Below are positions 33,703 to 50,969 of a DNA stretch of 64,000 nucleotides, piece by piece. Within the stretch, counting starts at the first letter, position 1, and every line of letters begins with the position of its first letter. The position numbers and the translations under genes were made by a program. The DNA lies in NCBI RefSeq assembly GCF_000482365.1, contig NZ_KI535308.1:28449-92448 (forward strand), given 5' to 3'. This stretch comes from Porphyromonas uenonis DSM 23387 = JCM 13868. Its GTDB lineage: Bacteria > Bacteroidota > Bacteroidia > Bacteroidales > Porphyromonadaceae. Under the pieces are notes generated by a model, which saw nothing but the letters and a program-made list of their open reading frames with translations, ran no database searches and was not told the DNA's origin.

Positions 33703-34119
33703 ATGAACGAGGAGGGAAAAACAAAAACTCTCCCCAGCAAGTGGAATCGCTGGGACGTTAGGTTATCAAACCCTGAAGATCAAATAAGAGTTATTGAATC
33801 TTTTAAGCGGTCAGGGTGCGACACAAAGTCGGACTTTGTCCGAAAAATGATACTTAGAGAAGACTTTCGGGTAGTCAAAACCAACGGAGACCTTATTAAG
33901 TTCACCACAAAACTGACAGATTTCATTTTTGCGGTGAACAAAATTGGAGTGTTATACAACCAAGCCGTCAGGGCGATGAACAAATATCACTCAGAGGAAA
34001 AAGCTGAACAGTTGCTAAACAACGTGAGCAACCAACAGATGGAGCTTATGGATAAGCTCCTCGAAGTCATTAACCTTACAAAGGAACTGAAAGATGATTG
34101 TCAAAGTGAAGTCCCCTAA
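33703..34119 (+). CDS. MobA-type relaxosome accessory protein (ribbon-helix-helix)
   Basis: A 138-residue cytoplasmic protein. The N-terminal part has the ribbon-helix-helix pattern of Bacteroides mobilisation proteins (RWDVRLSNPEDQIRVIESF, KSDFVRKMIL), followed by long helices (FAVNKIGVLYNQAVRAMNKY). It would bind the transfer origin and help load the relaxase. Its end overlaps the relaxase start by 26 bp. Confidence 0.85.
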   Translation: MNEEGKTKTLPSKWNRWDVRLSNPEDQIRVIESFKRSGCDTKSDFVRKMILREDFRVVKTNGDLIKFTTKLTDFIFAVNKIGVLYNQAVRAMNKYHSEEKAEQLLNNVSNQQMELMDKLLEVINLTKELKDDCQSEVP

Positions 34120-35302
34120 GTCCCTATTAAGGGTCTTAACCTACAACCTTAATAAGGTGGAACGTGGTGTTGGGGCGGTTCTTTATACCCAAGGGGTATA
34201 CAATTCTATGGGACAGGTGCCGTCTCCTCAGGCTATCTACGAGGATATGATGATGCAGATACCCTCTAAAACGAGGGTGAAGAACATCGCTTTTTCTTGC
34301 TCGCTCAATCCTGACCCCTCGGAGACGCTATCTGATGAACAATATGTGCAGATAGCTCAAGAGTTTATGGAACGTATGGGATATGGTAGCCAACCTTTTG
34401 TTGTGGTCAAGCACTGGGATATTGCTCGACAACATATCCACATAGTATCTACGAGAGCAGATAAGCTGGGCAAAAAAATCTCAGACAAGCACGAAGGACG
34501 AAAAGCTCGCAAGGTCGTTGACGCTCTAGAGCGCAAATACAACCTTAAGCTAACAAAGCCTGACAAGGAAAAGACAGCAAAAAAGAAGCCTGTGGAACTA
34601 AAACAGGCAAAACCTATCAATGTCAAAGAGGGCAATGTTACAGAACAAGTATACAATGTGGCTCGACAAGTGGTGCAGAAAGGAGCTTTTACCTCTATTG
34701 GAGGTCTAAACGCTTTACTGGCTCCCTATAACTTGTCGGCTAAGTTCACCAAGTCCGAACGTAAAGGCAAGCAATACGACGGCATTGTGTACATACCTAT
34801 GGAAGAAGGGAAGCCCGTGGCTCCCCCAATACCCTCTAAAGATTTAGGAAGAGGTGTAGGATATACAGCGGTCAAAACGGCTATGTACAAGTCGGGTAAG
34901 AAGTGCCAAGAGAAGGCGGAAGAGATGAGAGCTATTATCGCTAGCGTGATGATTACACGGCCAAAGACACTGGAAGAGTTTACAGACAAGCTCAAAGAAA
35001 ATGGACTGGAACTAATGGCTAAGCGCAACGAGAATGGACGTATCTATGGGGCTACCTATGTGGACAGAAACGATATGGTTGCTATTAGCGGGTCAAAACT
35101 GGGTAGTGATTTTTCAGCTAACACGCTCAATGAACTATTCGGAACCACTCAAGAGAGCAATACAGACAGAGAAAAACAGACCGAGAGAACTCAGAGACGG
35201 AGGTACAGCTCGTCATCGCACCGACCAAATATAAGCGGGGAGGACTGGAAGGAGATAAGCTGGCAGAAGTACCTGAGACGCAAATACAACAAAATCAAAT
35301 AA
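34094..35302 (+). CDS. Relaxase / mobilization nuclease (MobB-like)
   Basis: A 402-residue relaxase that nicks oriT and leads the strand into the recipient. The N-terminal relaxase domain has the metal-binding histidines in VKHWDIARQHIHIVSTRAD (HxH), preceded by NIAFSCSLNP. A candidate tyrosine lies in the N-terminal segment LRVLTYNLNKVERG. The second half is basic and helical, ending RRKYNKIK; it does not carry the VPSSPVQ tag found in other proteins of the element. Belongs to the Bacteroides branch of MOBP-like relaxases. Confidence 0.9.
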   Translation: MIVKVKSPKSLLRVLTYNLNKVERGVGAVLYTQGVYNSMGQVPSPQAIYEDMMMQIPSKTRVKNIAFSCSLNPDPSETLSDEQYVQIAQEFMERMGYGSQPFVVVKHWDIARQHIHIVSTRADKLGKKISDKHEGRKARKVVDALERKYNLKLTKPDKEKTAKKKPVELKQAKPINVKEGNVTEQVYNVARQVVQKGAFTSIGGLNALLAPYNLSAKFTKSERKGKQYDGIVYIPMEEGKPVAPPIPSKDLGRGVGYTAVKTAMYKSGKKCQEKAEEMRAIIASVMITRPKTLEEFTDKLKENGLELMAKRNENGRIYGATYVDRNDMVAISGSKLGSDFSANTLNELFGTTQESNTDREKQTERTQRRRYSSSSHRPNISGEDWKEISWQKYLRRKYNKIK

Positions 35303-35322: not shown

Positions 35323-37362
35323 ATGGGACAAGAAGACGACCTAAGAGGACTAGCTAAAGTGATGGATTTCATACGAGCCGTTTCCATACTTTTCCTCATA
35401 ATACATATCTACTGGTACTGCTACTCTGCTTGGGCGGAGATGGGCTGGACTGTGGGGTTGGTGGACAGATTACTGAAACAGTTTGACAGGGCTACAATCC
35501 TTTTCGCTTCACCGTGGGTAACTAAGGGTTTTTGCCTCCTCCTACTAGCACTATCTTGCTTAGGTACACGAGGGGTCAAGAACGAAAAATACACGTGGGG
35601 GCGCATATACAGCACGCTACTATTAGGACTAGTTTTGTTTACGGGGTCGTGGCTGATACGACAGCTGCCTATAACCCCGCTGATAACAAAAGCTGGGGTA
35701 TATACCTTAGTTATATCGGCTGGATATGTTTTTCTGATGCTGGGAGGCACGTGGATTTCTCGCATTCTAAAGCAAAATGTAATGGACGACGTATTCAACG
35801 TGGAGAACGAGAGCTTTGAGCAGGAGCGTCAGCTGATGGTCAACGAGAACTCAGTCAACATACCTACGAAGTTTTACTACAAACAGAAGTGGAACGATGG
35901 TTGGATAAATGTGGTAAACCCGTATAGAGCTTCCATTGTGCTTGGAACACCTGGATCTGGTAAATCGTTTGCAGTAGTGAACAACTACATCAAACAGCAG
36001 ATTGAAAAGGGATTTTCAATGTACATATACGACTATAAGTTTCCCGACCTATCGATCATTGCTTACAACCACTTGCTTAAGCACGCTGGTAAATATGATA
36101 AGCTACCGCAATTCTACATCATAAACTTTGACGACCCGCGCAGGAGCCATCGGTGCAACCCTATTGCCCCTGAGTTTATGAGTGATATATCGGACGCATA
36201 CGAGAGTGCCTATACGATTATGCTTAACCTGAACCGCACGTGGATTCAAAAGCAGGGAGACTTCTTCGTAGAGTCACCTATCATTCTTTTTGCGGCCATC
36301 ATTTGGTATCTCAAGATTTACGAGAATGGACTGTACTGTTCGTTTCCACACGCTATTGAGTTCCTTAACCAGCCGTACTCAGACATCTTTGAGATACTGA
36401 TGAGCTATGATGAGCTGGCAAACTACTTAGCACCCTTTATGGACGCTTGGAAGGGGGGAGCGCAAGACCAGTTACAAGGTCAGCTCGCTTCAGCTAAAAT
36501 CCCGCTCGCTCGTATGATTTCACCACAGCTTTACTGGGTGATGACGGGTAACGACTTTACACTGGACATTAATAACCCTGACGACCCAAAGGTGCTTGTC
36601 GTGGGCAACAACCCCGACAGACAGAATATCTACTCTGCGGCACTGGGTCTATACAACAGCCGTATCGTCAAACTGATTAACAAGAAGAAGATTAAGAACA
36701 AGGAGACAGGGGAGGAAAAGCGAACGCTCAAAAGCTCTGTTATCATTGATGAGTTACCTACAATCTATTTCCGTGGACTAGACAACTTGATTGCAACAGC
36801 TCGATCTAATCGTGTGGCGGTATGCCTAGGATTTCAGGACTTCTCACAGCTGGTCAGAGACTATGGTGATAAGGAGGCAAAGGTTATCCAAAACACGGTG
36901 GGTAACATCTTCTCGGGTCAGGTTGTTGGCGAAACGGCTAAATGGCTTTCGGAGCGGTTTGGCAAGGTACTACAACAGCGTCAATCAATCTCTATTAACC
37001 GCAACGACACCTCTACATCTATTTCTACACAGCTGGAGAGCATCATTCCTGCATCTAAAATCTCAGGACTGACACAGGGGTTCTTTGTGGGTGCCGTGGC
37101 TGATGAGTTTGACCAACGCATCGAGCAGAAGATTTTCAACGCTCAGATTGTGGTTGATGTGGCTAAAGTACAGGCGGAAGAGAAGGAGTACGTCAAGGAG
37201 ATGCCACAGCTACTGCATAACCTTCGTGGCGAACAGCTCACGGACGATGAGCTTGACCAAATAATCAAAGCCAACTACACCAAAATCAAAAAGGATGTCC
37301 TGTCTATCGTTATCGTGGAGAAAGCTCGAATAGCTAAAGAACAGGAAATGGCAACGGCATAG
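35323..37362 (+). CDS. Type IV coupling protein (VirD4/TraG-type, YWFCY domain)
   Basis: A 679-residue inner-membrane ATPase linking relaxosome to channel. The N-terminal region has four membrane segments and IYWYCY, the hallmark of the YWFCY-domain group usually called MobC in Bacteroides. Walker A is GTPGSGKS near residue 208; Walker B region is SSVIIDELPT near 475, with RSNRVAVCLGFQDFSQL after it. It recognises substrates, so it would be the receptor for any C-terminal delivery tag. It is followed by a terminator. Confidence 0.93.
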   Translation: MGQEDDLRGLAKVMDFIRAVSILFLIIHIYWYCYSAWAEMGWTVGLVDRLLKQFDRATILFASPWVTKGFCLLLLALSCLGTRGVKNEKYTWGRIYSTLLLGLVLFTGSWLIRQLPITPLITKAGVYTLVISAGYVFLMLGGTWISRILKQNVMDDVFNVENESFEQERQLMVNENSVNIPTKFYYKQKWNDGWINVVNPYRASIVLGTPGSGKSFAVVNNYIKQQIEKGFSMYIYDYKFPDLSIIAYNHLLKHAGKYDKLPQFYIINFDDPRRSHRCNPIAPEFMSDISDAYESAYTIMLNLNRTWIQKQGDFFVESPIILFAAIIWYLKIYENGLYCSFPHAIEFLNQPYSDIFEILMSYDELANYLAPFMDAWKGGAQDQLQGQLASAKIPLARMISPQLYWVMTGNDFTLDINNPDDPKVLVVGNNPDRQNIYSAALGLYNSRIVKLINKKKIKNKETGEEKRTLKSSVIIDELPTIYFRGLDNLIATARSNRVAVCLGFQDFSQLVRDYGDKEAKVIQNTVGNIFSGQVVGETAKWLSERFGKVLQQRQSISINRNDTSTSISTQLESIIPASKISGLTQGFFVGAVADEFDQRIEQKIFNAQIVVDVAKVQAEEKEYVKEMPQLLHNLRGEQLTDDELDQIIKANYTKIKKDVLSIVIVEKARIAKEQEMATA

Positions 37363-37446: not shown

Positions 37447-38244
37447 CTACAGCTTATGTCGACGAGACTTGCCCTCTGTCTGAACTTCTTGCTCAGTCTT
37501 TAACGCTTGAGACGCTTGATCTTTTCTAGTATCAAGTATCGCTTGTGCTTCCTCCTGCACAGGCGAGCTGGGGACAACTATCTTTGAAGACTTTCTAGCA
37601 GGTGAAAGAGGAGGCAAGGCAAAGACCTTAGACTGATGAGCAGTCATAGCTTGAAGCCTGTCCGCTATCTTCTGCCAAGAGTAAGTACCCTCTAGCATCA
37701 CAACAGTCTCCTCGTGATCAATGTCATCAAAGTACGTTATACCCTTTAATGGACGAAGAGGGCTAGAGGTCGGAAACTTCTGAACGTAAAATCCTAGCAT
37801 CTCTTGAAAAGAGTACCGAGTAGAGAGGTAGGCGATGTCTATAAAGTCTTTGAGCCTAGAACCATTATCTGCTATGGCTGACAGCTTCATAGCTATAATA
37901 TCAGGCTGACTATACAAGCGTATTCCCTCTTCCTCTAGAGGATTTTGCAAGAGAGGGTAAGGGTGGGTGATACAGTCTATCTTTACTCCATCAATGCGAC
38001 CTTTGAGCGTGTTTTGTTCACTATAGTCGCCTTGAAATCCAAACTTTGTAACAAGGAAATGCTCTAAGCGGGCTGTATTGAAGGGATAAGGAGTAAAGAG
38101 GTCTAAGTCAATACTCTTGCGATGCCCCAAATAAAGAGCTAGAGCGGTGCCTCCAGCTAAATGAAAGTTAGAAAATTCGGACTGAGACTGTAACTGCTTT
38201 AAGAGTTCCAGCGTTCGCTTCTCAACTGTTGTCGTCTGTAACAT
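37447..38244 (-). CDS. AbiEii-like nucleotidyltransferase toxin with C-terminal VPSSPVQ tag
   Basis: A 265-residue protein. Residues 1-205 are an AbiEii/AbiGii-type nucleotidyltransferase: GGTALALY near residue 32 and SIDLDLF near 44 give the polymerase-beta-like active site, with KLSAIADNGSRLKDFIDI downstream. AbiEii toxins stall growth, probably by modifying RNA. The last 42 residues (VPSSPVQ ... HKL) are not part of the toxin family and match the ends of three other proteins of this element. It overlaps the antitoxin gene by 46 bp, so the two are coupled. Confidence 0.88.
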   Translation of the reverse strand: MLQTTTVEKRTLELLKQLQSQSEFSNFHLAGGTALALYLGHRKSIDLDLFTPYPFNTARLEHFLVTKFGFQGDYSEQNTLKGRIDGVKIDCITHPYPLLQNPLEEEGIRLYSQPDIIAMKLSAIADNGSRLKDFIDIAYLSTRYSFQEMLGFYVQKFPTSSPLRPLKGITYFDDIDHEETVVMLEGTYSWQKIADRLQAMTAHQSKVFALPPLSPARKSSKIVVPSSPVQEEAQAILDTRKDQASQALKTEQEVQTEGKSRRHKL

Positions 38245-38528
38245 AATAACTCTTCTTTATTTAGCTTGAAAAAGGAACAGACAAAGGCAATATCCTTTTG
38301 AGAGAGGTGACGAACAGCCTTAATAATCTCTCGAAAATTCTCAATGCCTCCATAGCGGTTTATAGCTCCACGATAGTCTTCTAGGCGACCTCGCTCGATA
38401 ATACGCTCTACAACTATGCACTTTGATTTATCCCAATCAAAGCTGGTCAAGTCATACTCCCAAAGCAGGCTGGGAGAGATAGCTTGACTATCACCGTAGG
38501 GTATGTATTGCTCAATAGGATAAAGCAT
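38199..38528 (-). CDS. Antitoxin partner of the AbiEii-like protein (DUF6922-like)
   Basis: A 109-residue cytoplasmic protein (start MLYPIEQYIPYG, DLTSFDWDKSKCIVVERIIERG, ENFREIIKAVRHLSQKDIAFVC). Small proteins of this kind often stand directly before AbiEii-type genes in Bacteroidota; the DUF6922 name is from memory. It has no VPSSPVQ tag, in contrast to its toxin partner. Overlap with the toxin gene indicates one transcript. It probably neutralises the toxin, directly or by repression. Confidence 0.75.
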   Translation of the reverse strand: MLYPIEQYIPYGDSQAISPSLLWEYDLTSFDWDKSKCIVVERIIERGRLEDYRGAINRYGGIENFREIIKAVRHLSQKDIAFVCSFFKLNKEELLCYRRQQLRSERWNS

Positions 38529-38642
38529 TGCTTAGAGATTTACTACTACATAGCAAATATACTAAATTCTCATCAGACCAAAACGAATTTGCGCCACTGG
38601 ATAGCTTGAAATTCTCTCCGTGGCTATTTACTACTACAAAAT

Positions 38643-38927
38643 CTATTTCGAAGCTAAAGCATACTCTCTATAGAGTTGCAACTCGCCTCTATGATAAACG
38701 CTATATATGTGACGACTGGGGTATAAGAGCAGACACTCGCCCTCTCTAAAACCGTCTTGATAGCTTACTCGCTGGCGCAAGGTGCCGTCAGGGTTCCATA
38801 CCTCGTGAACTCCATTGGGGTAGCCGTCTTTATAAGGCAAGCGCTCCCTGAGCGTGCCGTCAGAATAACGGCTCTCACAAACACCCGTATAGGGTTGTCC
38901 ATTGTTACTATATTTTATTGTCTCCAT
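38643..38927 (-). CDS. Small MORN-repeat (YwqK-like) protein
   Basis: A 94-residue protein made of about three MORN-type units (YSDGTLRERLPYKDGYPNGVHEVW; NPDGTLRQRVSYQDGFREGECL). These repeats are the same kind as those in the C-terminal half of the primase fusion at 44565. Proteins of this type are often labelled YwqK antitoxin. No tag at its C-terminus (ends YALASK). The 114-bp gap to the antitoxin gene is empty. Role unknown, perhaps immunity or protein binding. Confidence 0.7.
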   Translation of the reverse strand: METIKYSNNGQPYTGVCESRYSDGTLRERLPYKDGYPNGVHEVWNPDGTLRQRVSYQDGFREGECLLLYPSRHIYSVYHRGELQLYREYALASK

Positions 38928-38940
38928 TAACTCAATCTGA

Positions 38941-39906
38941 TTATAGTTTATGTGATTGGTTTTTACGCTCTACCTGCTCCTCCTGAGCATTCTTGAGCGT
39001 ATTGTCATTGCGCTCTCTTTGTGCGTCAAGTGTTGCTTCCGCCTGCTCTTGCACGGGAGAGCTGGGGACAACGATTCGCGTTGCTTGTTTTGTCAAAGCA
39101 ACCATCTCTGCTTGCGCTTGCTTGACAGACTGTAGTGGGTCTGAAAGTGTAGTTGATAGACGCTTGTTTCGTGCCGTTTCGTACACTTTGACTAGCTCTG
39201 TATAATCGCCCGTAAGAGCGAATTGATGGCAAGTCTGCATAGCGTCAAGGAGCTTGACGTTTGGCTCGTAGGACAATTCGACTCCTTTTAGTAACTTTGC
39301 AAGTGAGATAGAGCTACTAAGTAGCGCCACGTGATCCTCTGACATCGTTATGGTTCGTGGCTTTGGGCTTAGTAGCTCTATTTCTGTTATGTCATACCCA
39401 TGGTATTTGCCTATCATATTTTCAAGACGTAAGACTTGAATTGTGGTTTTTACTCGATACAAAGTAGAGTTTATAGACAAACACCCATAAAGCCTTTGAA
39501 CTTTCTCTATTGCAGGATCACTTGGAGATGTAGCTATTCGATTATTATCTTCTACCTTTTTTCGATCACGATGTTCCTCTAAAAGTAACGACGATTTTAT
39601 TAGAGGAACAACATAAGGAATGGCTTTGATATAAGCCTTTTGAAGTCCTATTTCGTAGTTGCTAATTGAATGGAATAGCTTGTCTCTAGACTTGTTGCTA
39701 ATCCGAACTTCTCCAACACCTTCGGGAGTTTCAGATTCGGGAAGTATTCGTGGCAATTCCGCAATCATATCCCTTGCATCAAAGTAATTGATATCAAGAT
39801 TGGGATTGCTTTGTACGACCATAACTTCAGTATTAGGGTCTAAGCTAGAGACTTTCAATTTCTCGTCGTAATCGGACGGAAAGGGCAATAGGATATTCTC
39901 CTCCAT
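38941..39906 (-). CDS. Polyvalent-type protein with LPD3/BECR-nuclease-like domain and VPSSPVQ tag
   Basis: A 321-residue protein. Residues about 65-190 (VRISNKSRDKLFHSISNYEI ... RLYGCLSINSTLYRVKTTIQVL ... YHGYDITEIELL) resemble the LPD3 domain, a putative Barnase-EndoU-ColicinE5/RelE-fold nuclease described in polyvalent proteins of phages and conjugative elements. A helical linker follows (residues 200-275), and the last 42 residues are the shared tag (VPSSPVQ ... SHKL). Domain assignment is by pattern memory. Likely made for action on or in the recipient; unproven. Confidence 0.72.
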   Translation of the reverse strand: MEENILLPFPSDYDEKLKVSSLDPNTEVMVVQSNPNLDINYFDARDMIAELPRILPESETPEGVGEVRISNKSRDKLFHSISNYEIGLQKAYIKAIPYVVPLIKSSLLLEEHRDRKKVEDNNRIATSPSDPAIEKVQRLYGCLSINSTLYRVKTTIQVLRLENMIGKYHGYDITEIELLSPKPRTITMSEDHVALLSSSISLAKLLKGVELSYEPNVKLLDAMQTCHQFALTGDYTELVKVYETARNKRLSTTLSDPLQSVKQAQAEMVALTKQATRIVVPSSPVQEQAEATLDAQRERNDNTLKNAQEEQVERKNQSHKL

Positions 39907-39918
39907 AATGTAGCTTGA

Positions 39919-41370
39919 TTAGACTTTGTGACCTTTAGTCTGCTCCCTAGACAGCTTCTGCTTAGGAGCTTCTTTATCGTTTGGGACTAACCGAACCTCT
40001 CTCTTTTGAGCTTGCTTGGTCAAATCGGTCGGGTCGTACTTACTGTATCGAACTCTCTGAGTAGACGCATCGTAAGAGACATAGCTGTTAAAGCTCTTCT
40101 TCGTTCGAGAGTTTTTCAAGCCCTCTAGATAGAGCGTCTCGCCCTTAGCTAACTTGTCTTGCGCCTCCTTGGTCAACACTTGACCATTAAGTATCGTCGG
40201 AACACCATCGGCTTGCCTCGTACCTAAGACTTGCTTCACTTCGTTTGTCGGGAATGTGAACGACAGAGCTCGCTTACAAGCGTCAACCTGTATAGTGGCT
40301 GTGTACTCTTTGCCCTTCGCACTTACACCTGAGAAGGATAAAGGCTCGCCAGCACGTAGTGTGGCTCGCTGGTCGGGAGAGAGGTCTACACCACTAATCG
40401 TTTGAGGTATATAAACTCTAGCGGTCGGAACGTACACAAGCGTATTGGTATCTTCATCGACAGAGACGTAAGCAGAAAACTCTCGCCCATCAGCTCCTTT
40501 AAGTTGTGCTACTCTTCCCAAGTGACCTGTCTCTAACAAACTCTCCTTATCCTGCTCGGTAAAGGAACAACACATATAGGGAGCTTCTAGATTCAACTCC
40601 TTGCGTACGCAACGAACAGAGAGACTCTCGCTACCATCGGGTTGAGTACGGAGGGTTAGTCGCCCCTCCGTTCTAATATCAATGTCGCCAGTCTTGATGC
40701 GAACAGGTAAGAGGTCGGTAGGCTTAAAGGATAGGAGGTTTTCCAGCTGTCCTCGCTCCTCCAGTATTTGTTTAGACAACCCTAAGCTTGCCAGCTTAGC
40801 CTCTAGCCCATCTGTAACCTTAGGAGCTTCTAGATAGTCTTGCGGACGCACCCTACTATCCTTTATATACTCCCCGTGATTTTTTGGATCGTGGAGAGCT
40901 TGACGGAGATTATCTATGCCAGCAGATATGCCCTTAATGCCCTGAGATAGCACAGGCACAAGCCACAAACGGTAGTCGCCTGACCTAGCAAAGCGCACAA
41001 AGTTGCGTAAAAATGGCTCCAATAGCGGTATGTCGTAGTCTTTATCAATAGTAGGCTTAGGCTTGCCTGATTTGCCCGTCTTCGCAGACTGACCAAACTG
41101 CTCTTTCTCAAACTTAGGCACAGTCTGTGCTGTATCGTCCGTTAAGTCCGATACAGACACTCCATCAATGCTTCCACCGTCCGCAATAGAGCGAACAACT
41201 TGCATCTCGCCCACGTCATCGCCAAAAGACACCTGTGAGCGGTCTTCGGCAACTAGGATATAGTTGTCAGCATCGTAAGATAACTGCTCCGTTGCGGCTC
41301 GCTCGTCAAGCGTTGACGGATTGTCGGGAGAGTCTATAAGCTCTCTATTATCAGTTTCTATAGCAGACAT
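39919..41370 (-). CDS. DUF3945/DUF4099-type protein ending HKV
   Basis: A 483-residue cytoplasmic protein common in Bacteroides mobile elements. N-terminal ~110 residues are acidic and variable; the middle and C-terminal parts are repeated DUF3945-type modules (LSPDQRATLRAGEPLSFSGV ... ; LTKEAQDKLAKGETLYLEGL ... ), like the module at the end of TopB here. The C-terminus is basic and ends KGHKV, close to the HKL ends of four neighbours but without VPSSPVQ. Function of the family is unknown. Confidence 0.8.
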   Translation of the reverse strand: MSAIETDNRELIDSPDNPSTLDERAATEQLSYDADNYILVAEDRSQVSFGDDVGEMQVVRSIADGGSIDGVSVSDLTDDTAQTVPKFEKEQFGQSAKTGKSGKPKPTIDKDYDIPLLEPFLRNFVRFARSGDYRLWLVPVLSQGIKGISAGIDNLRQALHDPKNHGEYIKDSRVRPQDYLEAPKVTDGLEAKLASLGLSKQILEERGQLENLLSFKPTDLLPVRIKTGDIDIRTEGRLTLRTQPDGSESLSVRCVRKELNLEAPYMCCSFTEQDKESLLETGHLGRVAQLKGADGREFSAYVSVDEDTNTLVYVPTARVYIPQTISGVDLSPDQRATLRAGEPLSFSGVSAKGKEYTATIQVDACKRALSFTFPTNEVKQVLGTRQADGVPTILNGQVLTKEAQDKLAKGETLYLEGLKNSRTKKSFNSYVSYDASTQRVRYSKYDPTDLTKQAQKREVRLVPNDKEAPKQKLSREQTKGHKV

Positions 41371-41381
41371 AGATAGTATGT

Positions 41382-42425
41382 TTATAGTTTATGAGATTGG
41401 GATTTGCGCTCTACCTGCTCCTCCTGAGCATTCTTGAGCGTCTTGTCATTGCGCTCGCCTCGCCCATCAAGTATTGCTTGTGCTTGCTCCTGTACAGGCG
41501 AGCTGGGGACAACGATTTTTGTCTTTTGCGCTTCAGAGGTTGTATCAAGCTGGTTGTCTTGATTCTCCTCTAAAAACGAGAGTGTCTCCTCTAGATGGTC
41601 AGCAATGAGTTCATTGCTGTTGCCTTGCAAAAAAGCCTCTACCTGCTCTTTTGTCAAGTCCTCAGACCAAGACGCTAAGGTGTTCTGTATGTTTTCCTCT
41701 AGACCGTCTACAACGATACTAGCGCACCGCTCTGTAACAAGCCAAACTGCACTGTTGTAACGAGGGTGGTCTAGTGTAATGGATTCCCCGAGATCATCTT
41801 CGAGGTCATATATAAAGTCCTCAATATCGTCTATGTGCTTTGTGTAAAACTCCTTTGTATCGCTGTAATAGACAAAGTCAGACAATATCCCTGACACGCA
41901 TCCGTGAATGCTGATCTCTTCAACCCCATCCACAGGGTTGTCATACTTAGCCATATGGTCTAGTAGGACGGTCTGCATATCAGTGGAGAATGAGCGGTCG
42001 GCTAGACCCGTCTCCTCAAAAGTGCGGGACAAAGCCTCTTTCATAACGGCTTCGTTGAAGTAGTCGGCTGGAGTAAAGCCATAGTGATAGTCTACAGCAT
42101 CGGTTAGGCTCTGTAGCTCGTTCTTACACCACTTCATATCGTCTAGCAGGTCTTGCAAGTCTCGAGGTTCACCTCTGTTTGCTCCATACCATACCATCGT
42201 TTGCTCGTTAACATCATAAGATGCCAACTGAGCATTAAGGTCGTCGAGAGTCTCTCTGTAGTCTAGAGGCTTCATAAGCTCAATCGTGAAGTCCTGTCTA
42301 CGAGGAGAAAACTTTTGAAGAGTTATATTCCCGTCTTCATCTTGCGTGAAGTTGAAGCCTTCTTTCGTAGCAATGTACTCTAGTTGTTCTTGCCAGTTGT
42401 CTGTTGTGGGTATTGTAAAATCCAT
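41382..42425 (-). CDS. Acidic protein of unknown function with VPSSPVQ tag
   Basis: A 347-residue strongly acidic protein. Residues about 160-240 contain SIHGCVSGILSDFVYYSDT, KEFYTKHIDDIEDFIYDLED and AVWLVTERCASIVVD, a segment I associate loosely with DUF7222-like proteins of Bacteroidota mobile elements. The last 42 residues are the shared module; at DNA level the tag is nearly the same as in the gene at 38941, so the tag was copied recently. Acidic proteins of this kind can mimic DNA or inhibit enzymes, but nothing here proves that. Confidence 0.75.
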   Translation of the reverse strand: MDFTIPTTDNWQEQLEYIATKEGFNFTQDEDGNITLQKFSPRRQDFTIELMKPLDYRETLDDLNAQLASYDVNEQTMVWYGANRGEPRDLQDLLDDMKWCKNELQSLTDAVDYHYGFTPADYFNEAVMKEALSRTFEETGLADRSFSTDMQTVLLDHMAKYDNPVDGVEEISIHGCVSGILSDFVYYSDTKEFYTKHIDDIEDFIYDLEDDLGESITLDHPRYNSAVWLVTERCASIVVDGLEENIQNTLASWSEDLTKEQVEAFLQGNSNELIADHLEETLSFLEENQDNQLDTTSEAQKTKIVVPSSPVQEQAQAILDGRGERNDKTLKNAQEEQVERKSQSHKL

Positions 42426-42459
42426 TGTTCTATTATTGTTTAAGGGTTAATTGATTGTT

Positions 42460-44559
42460 TTACTTGTTCTTCCGACTGTTGCTTGGAAACTCAAAACTCG
42501 TTTTCCCCGTGTCGTGGTCAAGGACGAGATAGGCACTAAAGGTCTTACCTGCTTTGCTCGTAAGTCCTTTGAGGAGGCTGGTCTTACCGTTCGAGAGTAG
42601 CTGCTTGCAATGTTCTTCCGTAAGTGGCACTCCCGCAACAGTGCGCCATACACTAAACTGGCAACCATCATTTTGACAGCGCATACTCTTACTATATATA
42701 CGGACGCTCTCTTGATGACACAAAGGACAGATATAGTTAGTACCTAGCGACACAGACGTGGATAGCAATTCGTCTGTAATCTGCTTTGTGTAATCCTCTA
42801 TCTGAGCGTTGAAGGTCGTTGGAGGCAGGTTCCCAGCCTCTATCTCTGCTAGAGACTTCTCCCACTGACCCGTCAATTCGGCATTACCTATGAGACGTGA
42901 CTTGACTAAGTTATAGACGGCTAGTCCACGTTCTGTAGGTATGAGCTGATTCTTTTGCCTGAGTACATAATTCTGGCGCAAGAGTTTCTCGATGATACTG
43001 GCTCGGGTGGCTGGTGTACCCAAGCCAACATCTTGCATTGCTTCTCTAGCCTCCTTATCCTCAATCTCCTTCCCTGCTCGCTCCATAGCACCGAGTAAAG
43101 TCGCCTCAGTATAGATAGGCTTAGGCTTTGTCTCACCCTCTTTAAGAGTTGCTTGTACCAAAGACAGCTCATCACCTTCCAAAATCGACGGGAGCGATGT
43201 TAGAGAGACCTCGTCACCATCAGGGTCGTCAGTTGTTTCGTCTTTGACAACTCGCCAACCCTTTTTCGTGATACAAGAGAGGGTGGTCACTAGTTCCTCA
43301 TCGCCTCCTAACAAGGTCAAGGACAACAGTTCTTTGTTAGACGCAGGTGAAACAGCCTCTAGCATTCGCATTGCTATCATCTTGTATATGATAGCTTCGC
43401 CCTCAGTTAGGTCTGCTGTCTCGCCTGTGGTTATGATAGCGTGGTGGTCGGTTATCTTACTGTCATCGACGGAGCGTGTATTTAAGCCCGCCACGATAAG
43501 ACCCTGAGCATAGATTTGATACTCTTGGTAAGGTAGCTGGCGGAGCAGATAGGACATAGTATCATAGACATCTTTAGGTATGTAGCGACTACCTGTACGA
43601 GGGTAGGTCGTAACCTTCTTCTCATACAAGCTTTGCGCTATGTTAAGCGTCTGTTCGGCGGTAAAGCCTTGCTTATTAGCCTCCTTCTGCAAAGTTGTGA
43701 GGTCATACAGTAGAGGTGGCTGGGTAGAAGTACTTTTGCGCTCTGCCTTTGTCACGGTCAGCGACGTTAGACTACTAACAGCGTAGAGCTTTGAATCAGC
43801 TAACCCCTTGTTGGTGATTGGCTCTGGACTGGAGACGGTGAAAGTTGCATCGCTACTTTTGACTTGTGCATTAATCTTCCAAAAAGGAGACTTGACAAAG
43901 TTCTTGTTAGACAAGTAGCGGTCACATATCATACAGAGCGTAGGGGTCTGCACTCGCCCTAGAGACAGCCCCCCACCGCCATTGCTGGCTATGGTGAGCG
44001 CACGACTAGCGTTCATTCCTACGAGCCAGTCAGCCTCGCTACGAGCCTTGCCTGCTAAGTAGAGCTTGTCGTACAATTGTCCCTCCTTAAGCTTGGTAAA
44101 CGCATCTCGGATAGCTTGGTCGGTCATAGACGAGAGCCACAAGCGGTCAAAAGGCTTACTACAACCTAGATAGTAGTAGATATAGCGAAAGATAAGCTCT
44201 CCCTCTCGCCCTGCATCAGTAGCTACGATGATACGCTCAGAGCTGTCAAAGCACTGCTTGATTACATCTAGCTGCTTACGGGCAAAGCTGTCCTCTTCAT
44301 AACCCTTACCATCTTTCTTTTTGACTTGTCGTACGACAAGCTTAAATGGCTTCGGGAGCATAGGTAGCTCCTCTCGTGCATAGATTGTGAAGCCGTACGT
44401 CTGAGGATCTGCGAGGGCAACTAAATGCCCATAAGCCCAAGTAATCTTGTACTGGTCGTTGTAGAGGTAGCCCTCGCTCCTATGCGTGACGTTAAGCACT
44501 TTGGCTATATCATTCGCAACCGACGGCTTCTCTGTGATTATACAGACTGGATTATTCAT
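42460..44559 (-). CDS. topB: DNA topoisomerase III (TopB)
   Basis: A 699-residue type IA topoisomerase, typical of Bacteroides conjugative elements. The TOPRIM start (VCIITEKPSVANDIAKVL), IIVATDAGREGELIFRYIYY, the active-site tyrosine region (KKVTTYPRTGSRYIP) and GLGTPATRASIIEKL are all intact. The end carries a zinc-type part (CPLCHQESVRIYSKSMRC) and a DUF3945-like module (LTEEHCKQLLSNGKTSLLKGL). It decatenates DNA during replication or transfer. No tag at the end (SNSRKNK). Confidence 0.95.
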   Translation of the reverse strand: MNNPVCIITEKPSVANDIAKVLNVTHRSEGYLYNDQYKITWAYGHLVALADPQTYGFTIYAREELPMLPKPFKLVVRQVKKKDGKGYEEDSFARKQLDVIKQCFDSSERIIVATDAGREGELIFRYIYYYLGCSKPFDRLWLSSMTDQAIRDAFTKLKEGQLYDKLYLAGKARSEADWLVGMNASRALTIASNGGGGLSLGRVQTPTLCMICDRYLSNKNFVKSPFWKINAQVKSSDATFTVSSPEPITNKGLADSKLYAVSSLTSLTVTKAERKSTSTQPPLLYDLTTLQKEANKQGFTAEQTLNIAQSLYEKKVTTYPRTGSRYIPKDVYDTMSYLLRQLPYQEYQIYAQGLIVAGLNTRSVDDSKITDHHAIITTGETADLTEGEAIIYKMIAMRMLEAVSPASNKELLSLTLLGGDEELVTTLSCITKKGWRVVKDETTDDPDGDEVSLTSLPSILEGDELSLVQATLKEGETKPKPIYTEATLLGAMERAGKEIEDKEAREAMQDVGLGTPATRASIIEKLLRQNYVLRQKNQLIPTERGLAVYNLVKSRLIGNAELTGQWEKSLAEIEAGNLPPTTFNAQIEDYTKQITDELLSTSVSLGTNYICPLCHQESVRIYSKSMRCQNDGCQFSVWRTVAGVPLTEEHCKQLLSNGKTSLLKGLTSKAGKTFSAYLVLDHDTGKTSFEFPSNSRKNK

Positions 44560-44564
44560 TGTGA

Positions 44565-46559
44565 TTATAGTTTGTGTTTATATTCTTGATGCTGGGAGGG
44601 GCGAGCTTCTGCTTGTTGCCCCACCTTTGGTGCGTTATAGCCCCGTGCGTCGAGTATCGCCTGTGCATGCTTCTGCACTGGAGAGCTGGGAACGATGACC
44701 TTTGAAGTCTGCTTCTTGTTAGCCTCTAGTTGCTCTAGCTCTTCAGGCTTACCTGACTTGACTGAGAGGTCGTTCTCAAAGAGAATCCAATGATACATCT
44801 CCCCACTCTCAGGGTCGTATTGTAGGTGTAGACCATCTTTTTTATTGTCTTTGTAGAGGGTTTGAGAAAGAAGATTTCCACCACCGTCCCAAAGCTCACA
44901 CAAGCCATCTAGCTTGTCGTCTTTGTAGTTCCAACGAGTTTGTGGACGACCATTCGGGTACCAAGTCTCAGATAGACCATCTCGCTTGCCAGCCCTGTAT
45001 TCTCTTCGTGACTTGAGTTGTCCGTTGTCATACCACTCCTCACTAACTCCTTCTCGCTTACCAGCCTTATAGGTGGCACGCTCCTCTAGTGCGCCATTAT
45101 CGTAGTAAGATTGACCGACACCGTCAAGCTTTCCAGCTTTGAAGGTGCATCGACCAGCCAACTGTCCATTACGATGCCAGCTATACCCCATACCTTCGGC
45201 TAAGCCGTCTTTATAAAACTTGCGACGGGAAATCTGACCATTGTCGTAGTGACACAGTTCGTGCAACTTACCTGTGGGGTACCAACCAAGATAAACTCCA
45301 TCTAGCTTACCTTGCTTAAAGTTAGCTCGCAACCATTGCTGTCCATCCTCATACCACGACTCGTATAAGCCGTCCTTTTCACCTCGCTTAAAGTGTAAGC
45401 GATCAAACAATTGACCGTTGGTATAGTGACCCTCCTGAACTCCTGTCAGCTGGAGGTTATAAATCTCATCTCTTGAGAGCTTGGAATCAATAAAGTTTTC
45501 TAGATTATCCATAGAGTTGTCTTGTTGTTTTATAGTTCGCATTATAATATCCTGCAAGGCTGTAGCAGTACCGCCTTGAGAAAAGTAGTCAGAGACATCT
45601 TTTTCGCTCTTACTACCTGACAAGGGGAGGTCAATACGAAAGAGATTGGGAACAGCAGGATTGTTCTCTATTATCCATTGAGACTGGCGTATGCCTGTAT
45701 CGTCCATATCATAGAGTACACCGACCGCATCAAAGCGGTCGGAAAGACCCTGTAAAAGAGTTTGAGGCAAATGAGCCGTCTCACTATTGAGACAGAAGGC
45801 TGAAAAGCCGTGAGAGGCAAGACTTAGAACGTCTTTTTCCCCGCCTGTAAGAAGAACATACTCTCCTTTAGAGGGTAGTTGTGTATATCCAAAGATGTGG
45901 TCTCTAGATCGTACACCCGCATTTAAGAAGCGTACCTTACTGTTGGGACGATAAATCTTGACGCTATCACCGAGCTGATAGCAATACATCGGCTCTGTAG
46001 ATTTATAGTGGAGCTGGTAAGGCTGACCCTTACGATTGTATGAAGAGAAGCTCGCTAGTGAGCTAACACCGTACTGTTCTAGCGTTTCTTGACTTATGCC
46101 ATACTTACCCCAAAACTCTAGGTCGGTCTCAGTGAAAGGCTGGGTCTGAACACTATACTTGCCAGTCATTGATGGTTGACTGAAGGGCAGGTCAGAAGAA
46201 GGTACTGAGACTTGGGGACGAATGGGAGCTTTAGCTAAGCTCTCCTGAGTAGTAATATCTAAGGGTAGATTTAAGTCCTGAACTATTTGAGCTAAGATTT
46301 TCGGAAATTGAGAGCTTAGTTTGTAACCAAAGAGCTCACCAACAAACCAAAAAGCGTCGCCACCACTTCCTCCATTACCAAAGTCCTTATACCGCCAAAC
46401 ACCGCTGTGATCTTGGTAAATGGTACAAGAGGCTTTCTTATCATCATAAAACGGACTTCGAAAATTCTTGCCTCCAGTAACATTTGGCAGGTAAGCTCGG
46501 AATATATCCAAGCCTCCACCTGTCAGTTGCAAGATTTCATCTCTGTCTCCATATTTCAT
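44565..46559 (-). CDS. Primase-like protein fused to MORN repeats and VPSSPVQ tag
   Basis: A 664-residue three-part protein. The N-terminal ~100 residues look like the zinc-ribbon region of conjugative-element primases (FRSPFYDDKKASCTIYQD ... KDFGNGGSGGDAFWFV) but lack the CHC2 cysteines. A TOPRIM domain follows with GGEKDVLSLA and YDMDDTG as acidic catalytic positions (about residues 235-310). Then come about eight MORN/YwqK units of 22-24 residues (YDNGQLKSRREYRAGKRDG and similar), and the 42-residue tag. Start 46559 (MKYGDRDEIL) is preferred; a longer frame begins at 46601, only 14 bp from the -7 box. Confidence 0.82.
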   Translation of the reverse strand: MKYGDRDEILQLTGGGLDIFRAYLPNVTGGKNFRSPFYDDKKASCTIYQDHSGVWRYKDFGNGGSGGDAFWFVGELFGYKLSSQFPKILAQIVQDLNLPLDITTQESLAKAPIRPQVSVPSSDLPFSQPSMTGKYSVQTQPFTETDLEFWGKYGISQETLEQYGVSSLASFSSYNRKGQPYQLHYKSTEPMYCYQLGDSVKIYRPNSKVRFLNAGVRSRDHIFGYTQLPSKGEYVLLTGGEKDVLSLASHGFSAFCLNSETAHLPQTLLQGLSDRFDAVGVLYDMDDTGIRQSQWIIENNPAVPNLFRIDLPLSGSKSEKDVSDYFSQGGTATALQDIIMRTIKQQDNSMDNLENFIDSKLSRDEIYNLQLTGVQEGHYTNGQLFDRLHFKRGEKDGLYESWYEDGQQWLRANFKQGKLDGVYLGWYPTGKLHELCHYDNGQISRRKFYKDGLAEGMGYSWHRNGQLAGRCTFKAGKLDGVGQSYYDNGALEERATYKAGKREGVSEEWYDNGQLKSRREYRAGKRDGLSETWYPNGRPQTRWNYKDDKLDGLCELWDGGGNLLSQTLYKDNKKDGLHLQYDPESGEMYHWILFENDLSVKSGKPEELEQLEANKKQTSKVIVPSSPVQKHAQAILDARGYNAPKVGQQAEARPSQHQEYKHKL

Positions 46560-46614
46560 AATGTCGTGGGGAAGTGGTGACGACCACTTATTAACTACCA
46601 AATTGTTCTTGCCT

Positions 46615-49736: not shown

Positions 49737-50969
49737 TTAATTGGTTACACATTCTTCTTGTAGGCGATTATCCAAGCAGCGCATTTCTTCACTCACCTTC
49801 ATAGGGAGGACACGAGCGTAAATACGGGTCGTTGAGAGGCAACTGTGACCTAGTACACTTCCAACAGTGTCAAGGCTTACACCCTTAGTCAGGGCAAGCG
49901 TCGCAAACGTGTGGCGAGCTAAGTGGTAAGTGAGTACTCGCTTCACACCACTTAGTCGTTGTATTTCTTTGAGTTGTTGATTGACGTACGGATTTGTACA
50001 TAGGGGGAATATCCTACACTCTGTAGAGGTCGCCTGAGCGAGATACGGAGTTAGGATATGCACGGCGACAGACATTAAAGGGATAGTGCTAAGAACACCC
50101 GTCTTCTTACGACGGATAACAACCCAGCTCTGACCGTGCATAGATATGATATTGTCTCTCTCTAGACGAGATATATCTGCATAAGATAGACCTGTATAGC
50201 AAGAAAAAAGGAAAGCATCTCGTACTAGTAGTAGCTTAGGGTTCGTTAGTTCAACCAAGCGCAAACGCTCTAAGTCTGCATCGTCTAAGAAACCCCTATC
50301 TGTAGGTTGGGTACGCAAAACGACCTTTGGAAAAGGTACGCGCATTAGCAAATCACCTTCGACAGCTCGCTCCATTGCTTTTTTCAAAAAGCGCAGAACT
50401 TTGATGGCGGTGTTGTGAGTGTAGCTTTTTTCTCCTTTTAAGTATAACTCGTAAGTGGAAAGCTCATCCTTCTGCACAGCAGAGAGGGGTAAGTCGTCCT
50501 TACCATATTGATGGCGCAAGTACCCTTGTAATAGGGTCATCTGATAGTTGTGCCATCTAAGTGTGGCACTTGTTATGTTCCCAACACGATATTGCTCTGC
50601 ACTTTCATCGAGAAGCGTTCTGTACACACCAACTAGAGTATAGTCGGTCGGACGGCTGGGAGACAGAGCTTCTCGCAGGTGGGAGAGTGAAAGCGTTCCC
50701 TTCGCACTCAATTGCTCTGCTAGCAATTGTATGCGACACTCTACATCTTGTAGTGCTTGGTTGATTTCTTCGCTTTTGGGAGCCGATGCCACAACCTTGT
50801 TATTAACCAAATAGCAAGGTTGTACAGAATAGCCAACCTGACCTAAGCTGGAACGCTCACCTTGTACGTACAGGCGTATCATAATAGGGCTATCGCCTTG
50901 ATAGCTCTTGTTATGCCTCGTGTAGTAGCGGACTTTTACGTCCAAGTCTAATCTCTTCATCACGAACAT
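49737..50969 (-). CDS. Tyrosine recombinase (integrase) of the conjugative element
   Basis: A 410-residue integrase with an N-terminal arm-binding part, a SAM-like core-binding domain (residues 110-210) and a C-terminal catalytic domain. Catalytic positions: HLARHTFATLAL (H-x-x-R), LGHS (His) and the nucleophile in TTRIYARVL. At the first arginine position it has CYTGLSYAD, with Ser in place of Arg, like IntDOT of CTnDOT. It sits 286 bp from the right end, transcribed inward. Confidence 0.93.
   Translation of the reverse strand: MFVMKRLDLDVKVRYYTRHNKSYQGDSPIMIRLYVQGERSSLGQVGYSVQPCYLVNNKVVASAPKSEEINQALQDVECRIQLLAEQLSAKGTLSLSHLREALSPSRPTDYTLVGVYRTLLDESAEQYRVGNITSATLRWHNYQMTLLQGYLRHQYGKDDLPLSAVQKDELSTYELYLKGEKSYTHNTAIKVLRFLKKAMERAVEGDLLMRVPFPKVVLRTQPTDRGFLDDADLERLRLVELTNPKLLLVRDAFLFSCYTGLSYADISRLERDNIISMHGQSWVVIRRKKTGVLSTIPLMSVAVHILTPYLAQATSTECRIFPLCTNPYVNQQLKEIQRLSGVKRVLTYHLARHTFATLALTKGVSLDTVGSVLGHSCLSTTRIYARVLPMKVSEEMRCLDNRLQEECVTN

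Follow-up and report, generated by a model that had tools for sequence, protein, structure and literature searches.

In the conjugative element that occupies about 26.9 to 51 kb of a 64,000-nucleotide stretch of Porphyromonas uenonis DSM 23387 (the whole stretch, termed the window, is part of a 2.25 Mb genome, G000), four proteins with unrelated bodies end in one shared tail, termed the PSSPVQ module. The tail is a separable protein module, on whose first 20 residues and last three purifying selection acts, and which has moved from one body to another by exchange. In every case here with known DNA context, the tail sits within a conjugative element. Moreover, on the same bodies or on other cargo of Bacteroidota elements, unrelated tails are frequent whose ends are alike in being basic, with K/R in the penultimate position before an L, I, V or M or, in many AbiEii proteins, an R. 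We propose, at a probability of roughly 0.56, that the shared tail is a substrate signal for type IV secretion, which the YWFCY coupling protein is predicted to read and by which the proteins would pass into the recipient along with the DNA. Given the C-terminal place of the tail, its unrelated carriers, the selection on its last residues and its mobile context, the likeliest function is export through the conjugation channel, with docking on the donor side ranking next.

A preliminary description of the window had listed four open reading frames (ORFs) ending in VPSSPVQ plus exactly 35 residues, with AxAxLD at positions 3-8 and a terminal HKL, and the sequence contains each of these ORFs with its tail as stated there. 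The alignment of the four tails has 14 invariant columns out of 45. One tail used as a query against its own genome retrieved the other three at E-values of 1.3e-18, 8.4e-11 and 2.8e-6, and the sole additional match is noise (E 0.32). Pairwise DNA identity is 67-82% over the first 20 tail codons, 20-44% over the 45 bases upstream and 25-37% over the stop codon plus 60 bases downstream. Because identity drops outside the tail on both sides, the homology is that of the coding tail, with its borders at the first tail codon and the stop codon. The description was also correct that the DUF3945 protein ends in HKV (GHKV), and that the relaxase, TopB and integrase lack the tail; the DUF6922 protein and a MORN protein of 94 amino acids (aa) lack it as well.

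The ratio of nonsynonymous to synonymous substitution rates (dN/dS), calculated from the DNA of 11 different tails of 44 residues in three genomes, is 0.11 over codons 1-20, 0.44 over codons 21-41 and 0.02 over the last three, at a dS of 1.0-1.4; inclusion of one duplicate gave near-identical values. Selection thus keeps the two ends of the module and not all of it. The module consists of two conserved ends and a looser linker, and is kept at the protein level. In AlphaFold2 models of the AbiEii-like and LPD3-like proteins, confidence is good for the bodies and low for the tails. These models draw the AbiEii tail as a helix (residues 228-252) followed by disorder, and the LPD3-like tail as a helix up to residue 313 with a predicted local distance difference test score below 50, both of which are weak evidence. 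Fold search with the LPD3-like model against the PDB gave no match better than E 0.2.

Profile search matched four of 61 genomes (own genome included), three of 26 genomes of the genus, and five of 395 genomes of the phylum. The last five are the own genome and four weak matches (E 0.0016-0.006), which proved to be unrelated proteins and were rejected as tail carriers. The fourth match among the 61 genomes is likewise a weak one to an unrelated protein (G023, E 0.02); the end of this protein (L026:9249-10034), which we take to be BatC-like, loosely resembles the middle of the tail, probably by chance. A scan of genome contigs located the tail in P. uenonis 60-3 (NZ_ACLR01000246.1) and in one Porphyromonas metagenome-assembled genome; scans of viral contigs and of plasmid records found none. 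In the protein database, a search that spanned about 190-607 aa and under-sampled larger tailed proteins yielded 105 tailed proteins with diverse bodies. The tail is the extreme C-terminus in 104 of these, whereas P0017 alone continues 15 residues beyond it, and no internal occurrence was seen. Counted from VPSSPVQ, the length is 42 residues in 93, 39 in seven, 40 in three and 57 in P0017; P0055 has IPTSPVQ. Accordingly, the fixed length that had been claimed holds within the window and not across the family, where 39-42 residues are typical. The window, G002 and G018 are the cases with known DNA context; each has the coupling protein (G018 carries it on one of three short contigs), and no carrier outside such elements was found in any of the three genome sets (61, 26 and 395 genomes). 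In these searches the PSSPVQ module was found only in Porphyromonas, while the short end signature extends more widely.

Beyond the conserved first 20 residues, the tails diverge into four subtypes: A (...NAQEEQVERKSQSHKL), B (...QVNKSSLKI), C (...QQQEYKHKL) and D (...KSSRHKL). The AbiEii bodies mostly have D or D-like tails (A in P0045), and the LPD3 bodies mostly A (D in P0193-P0195). On the Toprim/MORN body, the window and G002 have C and G018 has B; on the DUF7222 body, the window has A, and both G002 and G018 have B. That one body bears several subtypes, and one subtype occurs on many bodies, agrees with the earlier claim that the tail moves as a unit. In G018, a 211-aa protein with subtype C sits between the Toprim/MORN gene and TopB; in G002 and G018, a 151-aa or 267-aa protein with subtype A stands between DUF7222 and DUF3945. 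Over roughly its first 300 residues the DUF7222 protein of the window matches a 621-aa form, but it misses some 275 residues before the tail, which its relatives in G002 and G018 possess. The tails hold their position while the bodies in front change, as if units of tail plus body entered by recombination within the conserved segment; we infer that such entry has occurred.

A natural control comes from the AbiEii and LPD3 bodies, which occur both tagged and untagged. Among the best 120 of 7179 AbiEii matches, 76 come from other lineages and are 61-65% identical. Of these 76, 47 are exactly 214 aa and stop at the end of the body, and 15 are at least 228 aa. Twelve of the 15 long proteins end in G-x-[KR]-[KRL], in tails that do not resemble PSSPVQ, compared to none of the 61 shorter ones. 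Mobilisation genes (MobA, MobB, YWFCY, DUF3945 and TraG were counted as markers) lie near AbiEii in 7/9 loci with an extension of at least 20 residues, compared to 2/50 of the rest (59 genes); the two remaining extended loci adjoin tyrosine integrases. With an equal search span and without the locus found through its tail, the comparison stands at 5/8 vs 2/50 (Fisher 2.3e-4). The context loci comprise 40 chosen matches (top matches and some long frames) and 13 more. A cut at 15 residues (9/13 vs 0/46, p 5.7e-8) was rejected, as it counted four borderline signature-less proteins as tailed; in that count only some loci, mostly tailed, had extra flanks, and the G002 locus had been entered through its tail. 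Search for AbiEii in plasmids gave two distant Hymenobacter matches, and none was found in viral contigs.

Cargo and relaxase ends can be compared within single elements. At L188, a presumed mobilizable element, AbiEii ends in IQPKKRGRRM and the relaxase in IHKKNRGRKM, both sharing RGR[KR]M; the corresponding ends are RRKSRGIS and KKNEGRKI at L189, and RRKSRGIR and KIKRPRL at L190. The relaxases of L189 (14861-16120) and L196 (51-1103), both presumed mobilizable elements, hold a DUF3945 domain beyond the relaxase domain, with E-values of 7.9e-5 and 1.5e-4, the latter just under the cut-off. Part of the similarity between relaxase and cargo ends may therefore stem from a shared module. This DUF3945 domain also links the relaxase to the commonest cargo family.

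For the LPD3 body, 41 of 55 homologs carry a PSSPVQ-type tail. The other 14 end in KGMKL (P0197, P0201-P0205), SRGMKV (P0200) or SKGFRR (P0207), or have neither tail nor signature (P0198, P0206 and P0208-P0211, several of which are short). The LPD3 family match of these homologs reaches E 8.5e-5 in P0203 and 1.7e-7 in P0207, of which only P0207 exceeds the cut-off. Frames of about 2900-3160 aa with an LPD3-like stretch are present at L211:4860-13586 (G391) and in contig C4 of G212; the LPD3-containing giant in G391 ends in ESRNK, with no signature.

Three end patterns were defined: M1, K-[LIVMF]-COOH with at least two K/R/H among the six preceding residues; M2, G-x-[KR]-hydrophobic at the end; and M3, a polybasic end plus a hydrophobic residue. 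M1 was written once the ends of L021-L025 and L036-L068 had been read, and L069-L095 and six later plasmids were unseen. In other elements, DUF3945 proteins end in SRGRKM, SRGMKM, KKGRKI and similar, and the SNF2/methylase giants in KGLKI, SGIKI, NKPKL and AGPKL. A count over 849 ORFs from 63 stretches gave 56 M1 matches. In 1515 ORFs, which include AbiEii loci of other genomes, M1 is found in 19/34 DUF3945 proteins, 10/22 giants, 11/14 PSSPVQ-tailed proteins, 7/47 relaxases, 2/58 AbiEii proteins without the module and 14/1183 other ORFs. It is absent in the same set from YWFCY (0/48), TopB (0/28), MobA (0/28), integrase (0/26), RteC (0/19) and TraG (0/8). The three tailed proteins that miss M1 are of subtype B, ending in SLKI, and some of the 14 other matches sit in transfer regions (L037, L068, L186 and L190). 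Shuffling of the last 20 residues gives mean M1 counts of 0.57 for DUF3945, 0.33 for giants and 1.81 for relaxases, compared to 19, 10 and 7 observed.

In the unseen L069-L095, M1 matches 7/11 DUF3945 proteins, 4/9 giants, 4/22 relaxases and 4/225 other ORFs, so that DUF3945 and giants together (11/20) differ from the other ORFs at p 5e-11. No match was found in this set among YWFCY (0/25), MobA (0/15), TopB (0/8), RteC (0/7) and integrases (0/3). Across the 1515 ORFs, M3 occurs in 23/47 relaxases versus 3/1183 other ORFs. A 436-aa protein adjoining a YWFCY coupling gene (L186:14213-15523) ends in EERSYGRKM, similar to the VKSYGRKF of a 450-aa Flavobacterium plasmid protein (L068).

Comparison of the AbiEii and LPD3 bodies, together with the cargo and relaxase ends elsewhere, indirectly supports the delivery tag suggested in the preliminary description, although that suggestion was too narrow and has to be widened to the short end signature. 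On our best reading of the sequences, the PSSPVQ module would be the Porphyromonas form of a C-terminal substrate signal of Bacteroidota conjugation. The last residues would be the recognised part, and the VPSSPVQ...LD segment might form a short helix that presents them and double as a recombination joint for new bodies. The YWFCY coupling protein would act as the reader, and the tailed proteins would be delivered to the recipient through the mating channel alongside the DNA. Tentatively, and at somewhat below even odds, we extend this to an address code of Bacteroidota conjugation, approximately K/R-rich plus (G)-x-K-[L/I/V/M]-COOH, carried by relaxases and diverse injected cargo (DUF3945, SNF2/methylase giants, LPD3, AbiEii and Toprim proteins). 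In Porphyromonas elements the code would have become a swap-in cassette with a conserved joint, through which a single recombination event could turn a new gene into injected cargo.

Several observations weigh against export. The PSSPVQ tail is of mixed charge overall and not polybasic, with basic and aliphatic last residues, and the relaxase of the window ends in KYNKIK, which is not K plus a hydrophobic residue and fits poorly. AbiEii proteins of L135 and L186 lie near mobilisation genes with only about 15 extra residues and no signature. The p-values overstate independence, because the tailed AbiEii loci come from few lineages, several loci being close relatives, and the loci were hand-chosen. 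Relaxase and cargo ends have a similarity of 2.85 within elements vs 0.59 (28 elements; 65 of 5000 permutations as high), in a test that ignores relatedness. In the six held-out plasmids, M1 is found in only 4/209 ORFs, three of them cargo and one a protein of the type IX secretion system (T9SS), and 0/3 DUF3945 proteins meet it, their ends being RGRKR, TSLKI and RMRI. The three cargo matches are DUF4099 (NNIKL) and Toprim (SKSLKI) proteins of pBFY46 and a Toprim protein of a Fibrella plasmid (YRTKL), which gives 3/16 cargo vs 1/193 (Fisher p 0.0014), with cargo assigned by hand. M2 looked specific in the 1515 ORFs (DUF3945 20/34, giants 9/22, other 3/1183); as it was defined on data already seen and has no match in the held-out plasmids (0/209), it is not claimed as a rule. 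Both held-out M3 matches are relaxases. From the held-out plasmids, the end signature is a tendency. On pBFY46 (L201, 13414-16822), adjacent DUF4099, DUF3945 and Toprim proteins end in NNIKL, TSLKI and KSLKI, near to subtype B (SLKI).

Recruitment without export would place the tail at a common partner in the donor, such as the relaxosome, TopB, the oriT complex or the membrane. All tailed genes of the window share one gene run with TopB and DUF3945, and the DUF3945 domain of the L189 and L196 relaxases (at the family cut-off) means that DUF3945 plus its end could be a relaxosome module. However, the tagged bodies (AbiEii, DUF7222 and MORN) have no obvious common donor function, and the end signature is missing from TopB and MobA (0/28 each); we regard such docking as unlikely. 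A signal of the MuA type for ClpX, which would clear or remodel the proteins after transfer or in the donor, is less probable again. The KKRGRRM, KGMKL and RHKL ends loosely resemble the RRKKAI-COOH of MuA, which is listed as a C-terminal ClpX degron (PMC8138137); yet relaxases often end similarly, the PSSPVQ tail also conserves a segment about 25-40 residues upstream of its end, and the association with mobile elements would be left unexplained.

The tail DNA might instead serve mainly as a joint for homologous recombination of cargo genes, with a peptide that does little, a role that could also act alongside a signal. G018, with its extra 211-aa body, keeps subtype C beside TopB while the upstream gene has B, and the DUF7222/DUF3945 boundary in G002 and G018 alike keeps subtype A, as expected if tail B plus a new body enters within the tail. 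A joint alone would not account for synonymous sites that have diverged (dS about 1 or more) while residues are kept (dN/dS 0.11 and 0.02), nor for the unrelated tails with similar ends that substitute on the same bodies, and we think it rather improbable. The host genus also brings to mind a T9SS sorting domain or another surface-export signal, since T9SS C-terminal domains are common in Porphyromonas. However, the four tailed proteins have no Pfam or NCBIfam sorting-domain match, no signal peptide is visible by eye at their N-termini, and the low-confidence model of the AbiEii tail shows a helix and then disorder; we consider a surface signal very improbable.

The element contains a TraG ATPase, DUF4133/DUF4134, MobC_2, the MobB-type relaxase and YWFCY, followed by a convergent gene run (AbiEii, DUF6922, MORN, LPD3-like, DUF4099/DUF3945, DUF7222, TopB and Toprim/MORN) and a tyrosine integrase (Table 1). 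By domain architecture, Toprim (weak) plus MORN and DUF7222 plus extra sequence would be polyvalent only in a loose sense, whereas AbiEii and the LPD3-like protein have one domain each. The ORF finder starts the Toprim-like/MORN protein at 46601; its relatives begin with MKYGD or MKYED.

Table 1. Tailed proteins, their tails and associated genes in the window.
Feature	Position	Strand	Evidence
MobC_2-family mobilisation protein	33703..34119	+	domain search
MobB-type relaxase (PF03432), basic end LRRKYNKIK, without tail	34094..35302	+	domain search, C-terminus inspected
YWFCY coupling protein, proposed tag reader (predicted)	35323..37362	+	domain search
AbiEii-like nucleotidyltransferase (PF08843), tailed	37447..38244	-	Pfam E 2.1e-16
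AbiEii tail, subtype D (IVVPSSPVQ...RRHKL), with stop	37447..37581	-	alignment, DNA comparison
DUF6922 protein adjoining AbiEii, without tail	38199..38528	-	domain search, C-terminus inspected
94-aa MORN-repeat protein, without tail	38643..38927	-	domain search, C-terminus inspected
LPD3-like protein, tailed	38941..39906	-	LPD3 E 0.0041, under Pfam cut-off
LPD3-like tail, subtype A (...NQSHKL), with stop	38941..39075	-	alignment, DNA comparison
DUF4099/DUF3945 protein, end KGHKV; no PSSPVQ module, short end signature present	39919..41370	-	ORF, domain search
Acidic DUF7222 protein (PF23864), tailed	41382..42425	-	domain search
DUF7222 tail, subtype A (...SQSHKL), with stop	41382..41516	-	alignment, DNA comparison
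TopB-type topoisomerase, without tail or end signature	42460..44559	-	domain search, C-terminus inspected
Toprim-like/MORN protein, tailed	44565..46559	-	Toprim match weak, E 0.04
Toprim-like/MORN tail, subtype C (...EYKHKL), with stop	44565..44699	-	alignment, DNA comparison
Tyrosine integrase, without tail	49737..50969	-	domain search, C-terminus inspected

The own genome holds additional DUF3945 genes in a different kind of element, at L037 (contig C1), L053 (C15) and on C19. The DUF3945 ends in L037 and L053 are SRGRKM, and L037 also encodes a 519-aa protein with a weak SMC-like match that ends in KSRGFKL. In G370 (L092 and L094), the coupling-protein matches contain in-frame TGA codons, and in L094 two frames that abut each other make up the broken SNF2/methylase giant; recoding of TGA is unsupported, as the control locus L093 gains long frames likewise, and the pattern looks like decay.

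As in the source passages on Agrobacterium VirB/D4 and Legionella Dot/Icm, where the signals are short, C-terminal and composed of a few positive or hydrophobic residues on unrelated carriers, the tail is short, C-terminal and shared by unrelated proteins; its last residues are basic and aliphatic, but its overall charge is mixed. It differs from them in that the K/R and aliphatic residues stand at the very end, within a conserved 42-residue module in Porphyromonas, and that recognition is only predicted. XVIPCD of Xanthomonas-type effectors is a modular C-terminal delivery unit on diverse bodies, and BID and XVIPCD are larger folded domains. The Bartonella Bep BID plus charged tail, as its source passages describe it, resembles the PSSPVQ tail as such a modular unit. 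Compared to these domains, the PSSPVQ tail has 42 residues with a helix and a disordered end modelled at low confidence, and the four tailed proteins have no BID or XVIPCD Pfam match at E<=0.1. Among known type IV signals, PMC3297438 and PMC11288057 describe plain clusters of hydrophobic or positively charged residues at the C-terminus, and they raise shuffling with relaxase genes as one possible origin. Iyer et al. (2017) proposed that the polyvalent proteins of conjugative elements enter with the DNA, and this class includes LPD3 and methylase-SNF2 helicase proteins, comparable to the cargo here; the relevant passages of that paper (PMC5512222) describe no shared C-terminal signal, whereas here separate proteins are united by a common tail. 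The MuA degron RRKKAI shares with the end signature basic residues followed by a hydrophobic last residue (PMC8138137), but it differs in sequence, and the distribution of the end signature tracks conjugation cargo. No C-terminal signal of Bacteroidota conjugation cargo was found in literature titles and abstract openings, a scope outside which most subscription journals lie. The looser end signature, beyond the PSSPVQ module, is new here.

Bacteroidota elements carry resistance genes (tet(Q) in one record), and the literature found does not show which proteins these elements inject in mating. A C-terminal signature would turn the "probably transferred" polyvalent proteins into a testable candidate list, and would supply a reporter tag and suggest how genes become injected cargo. 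If the address code is true, sequence alone would suffice to predict a large part of the injected proteins.

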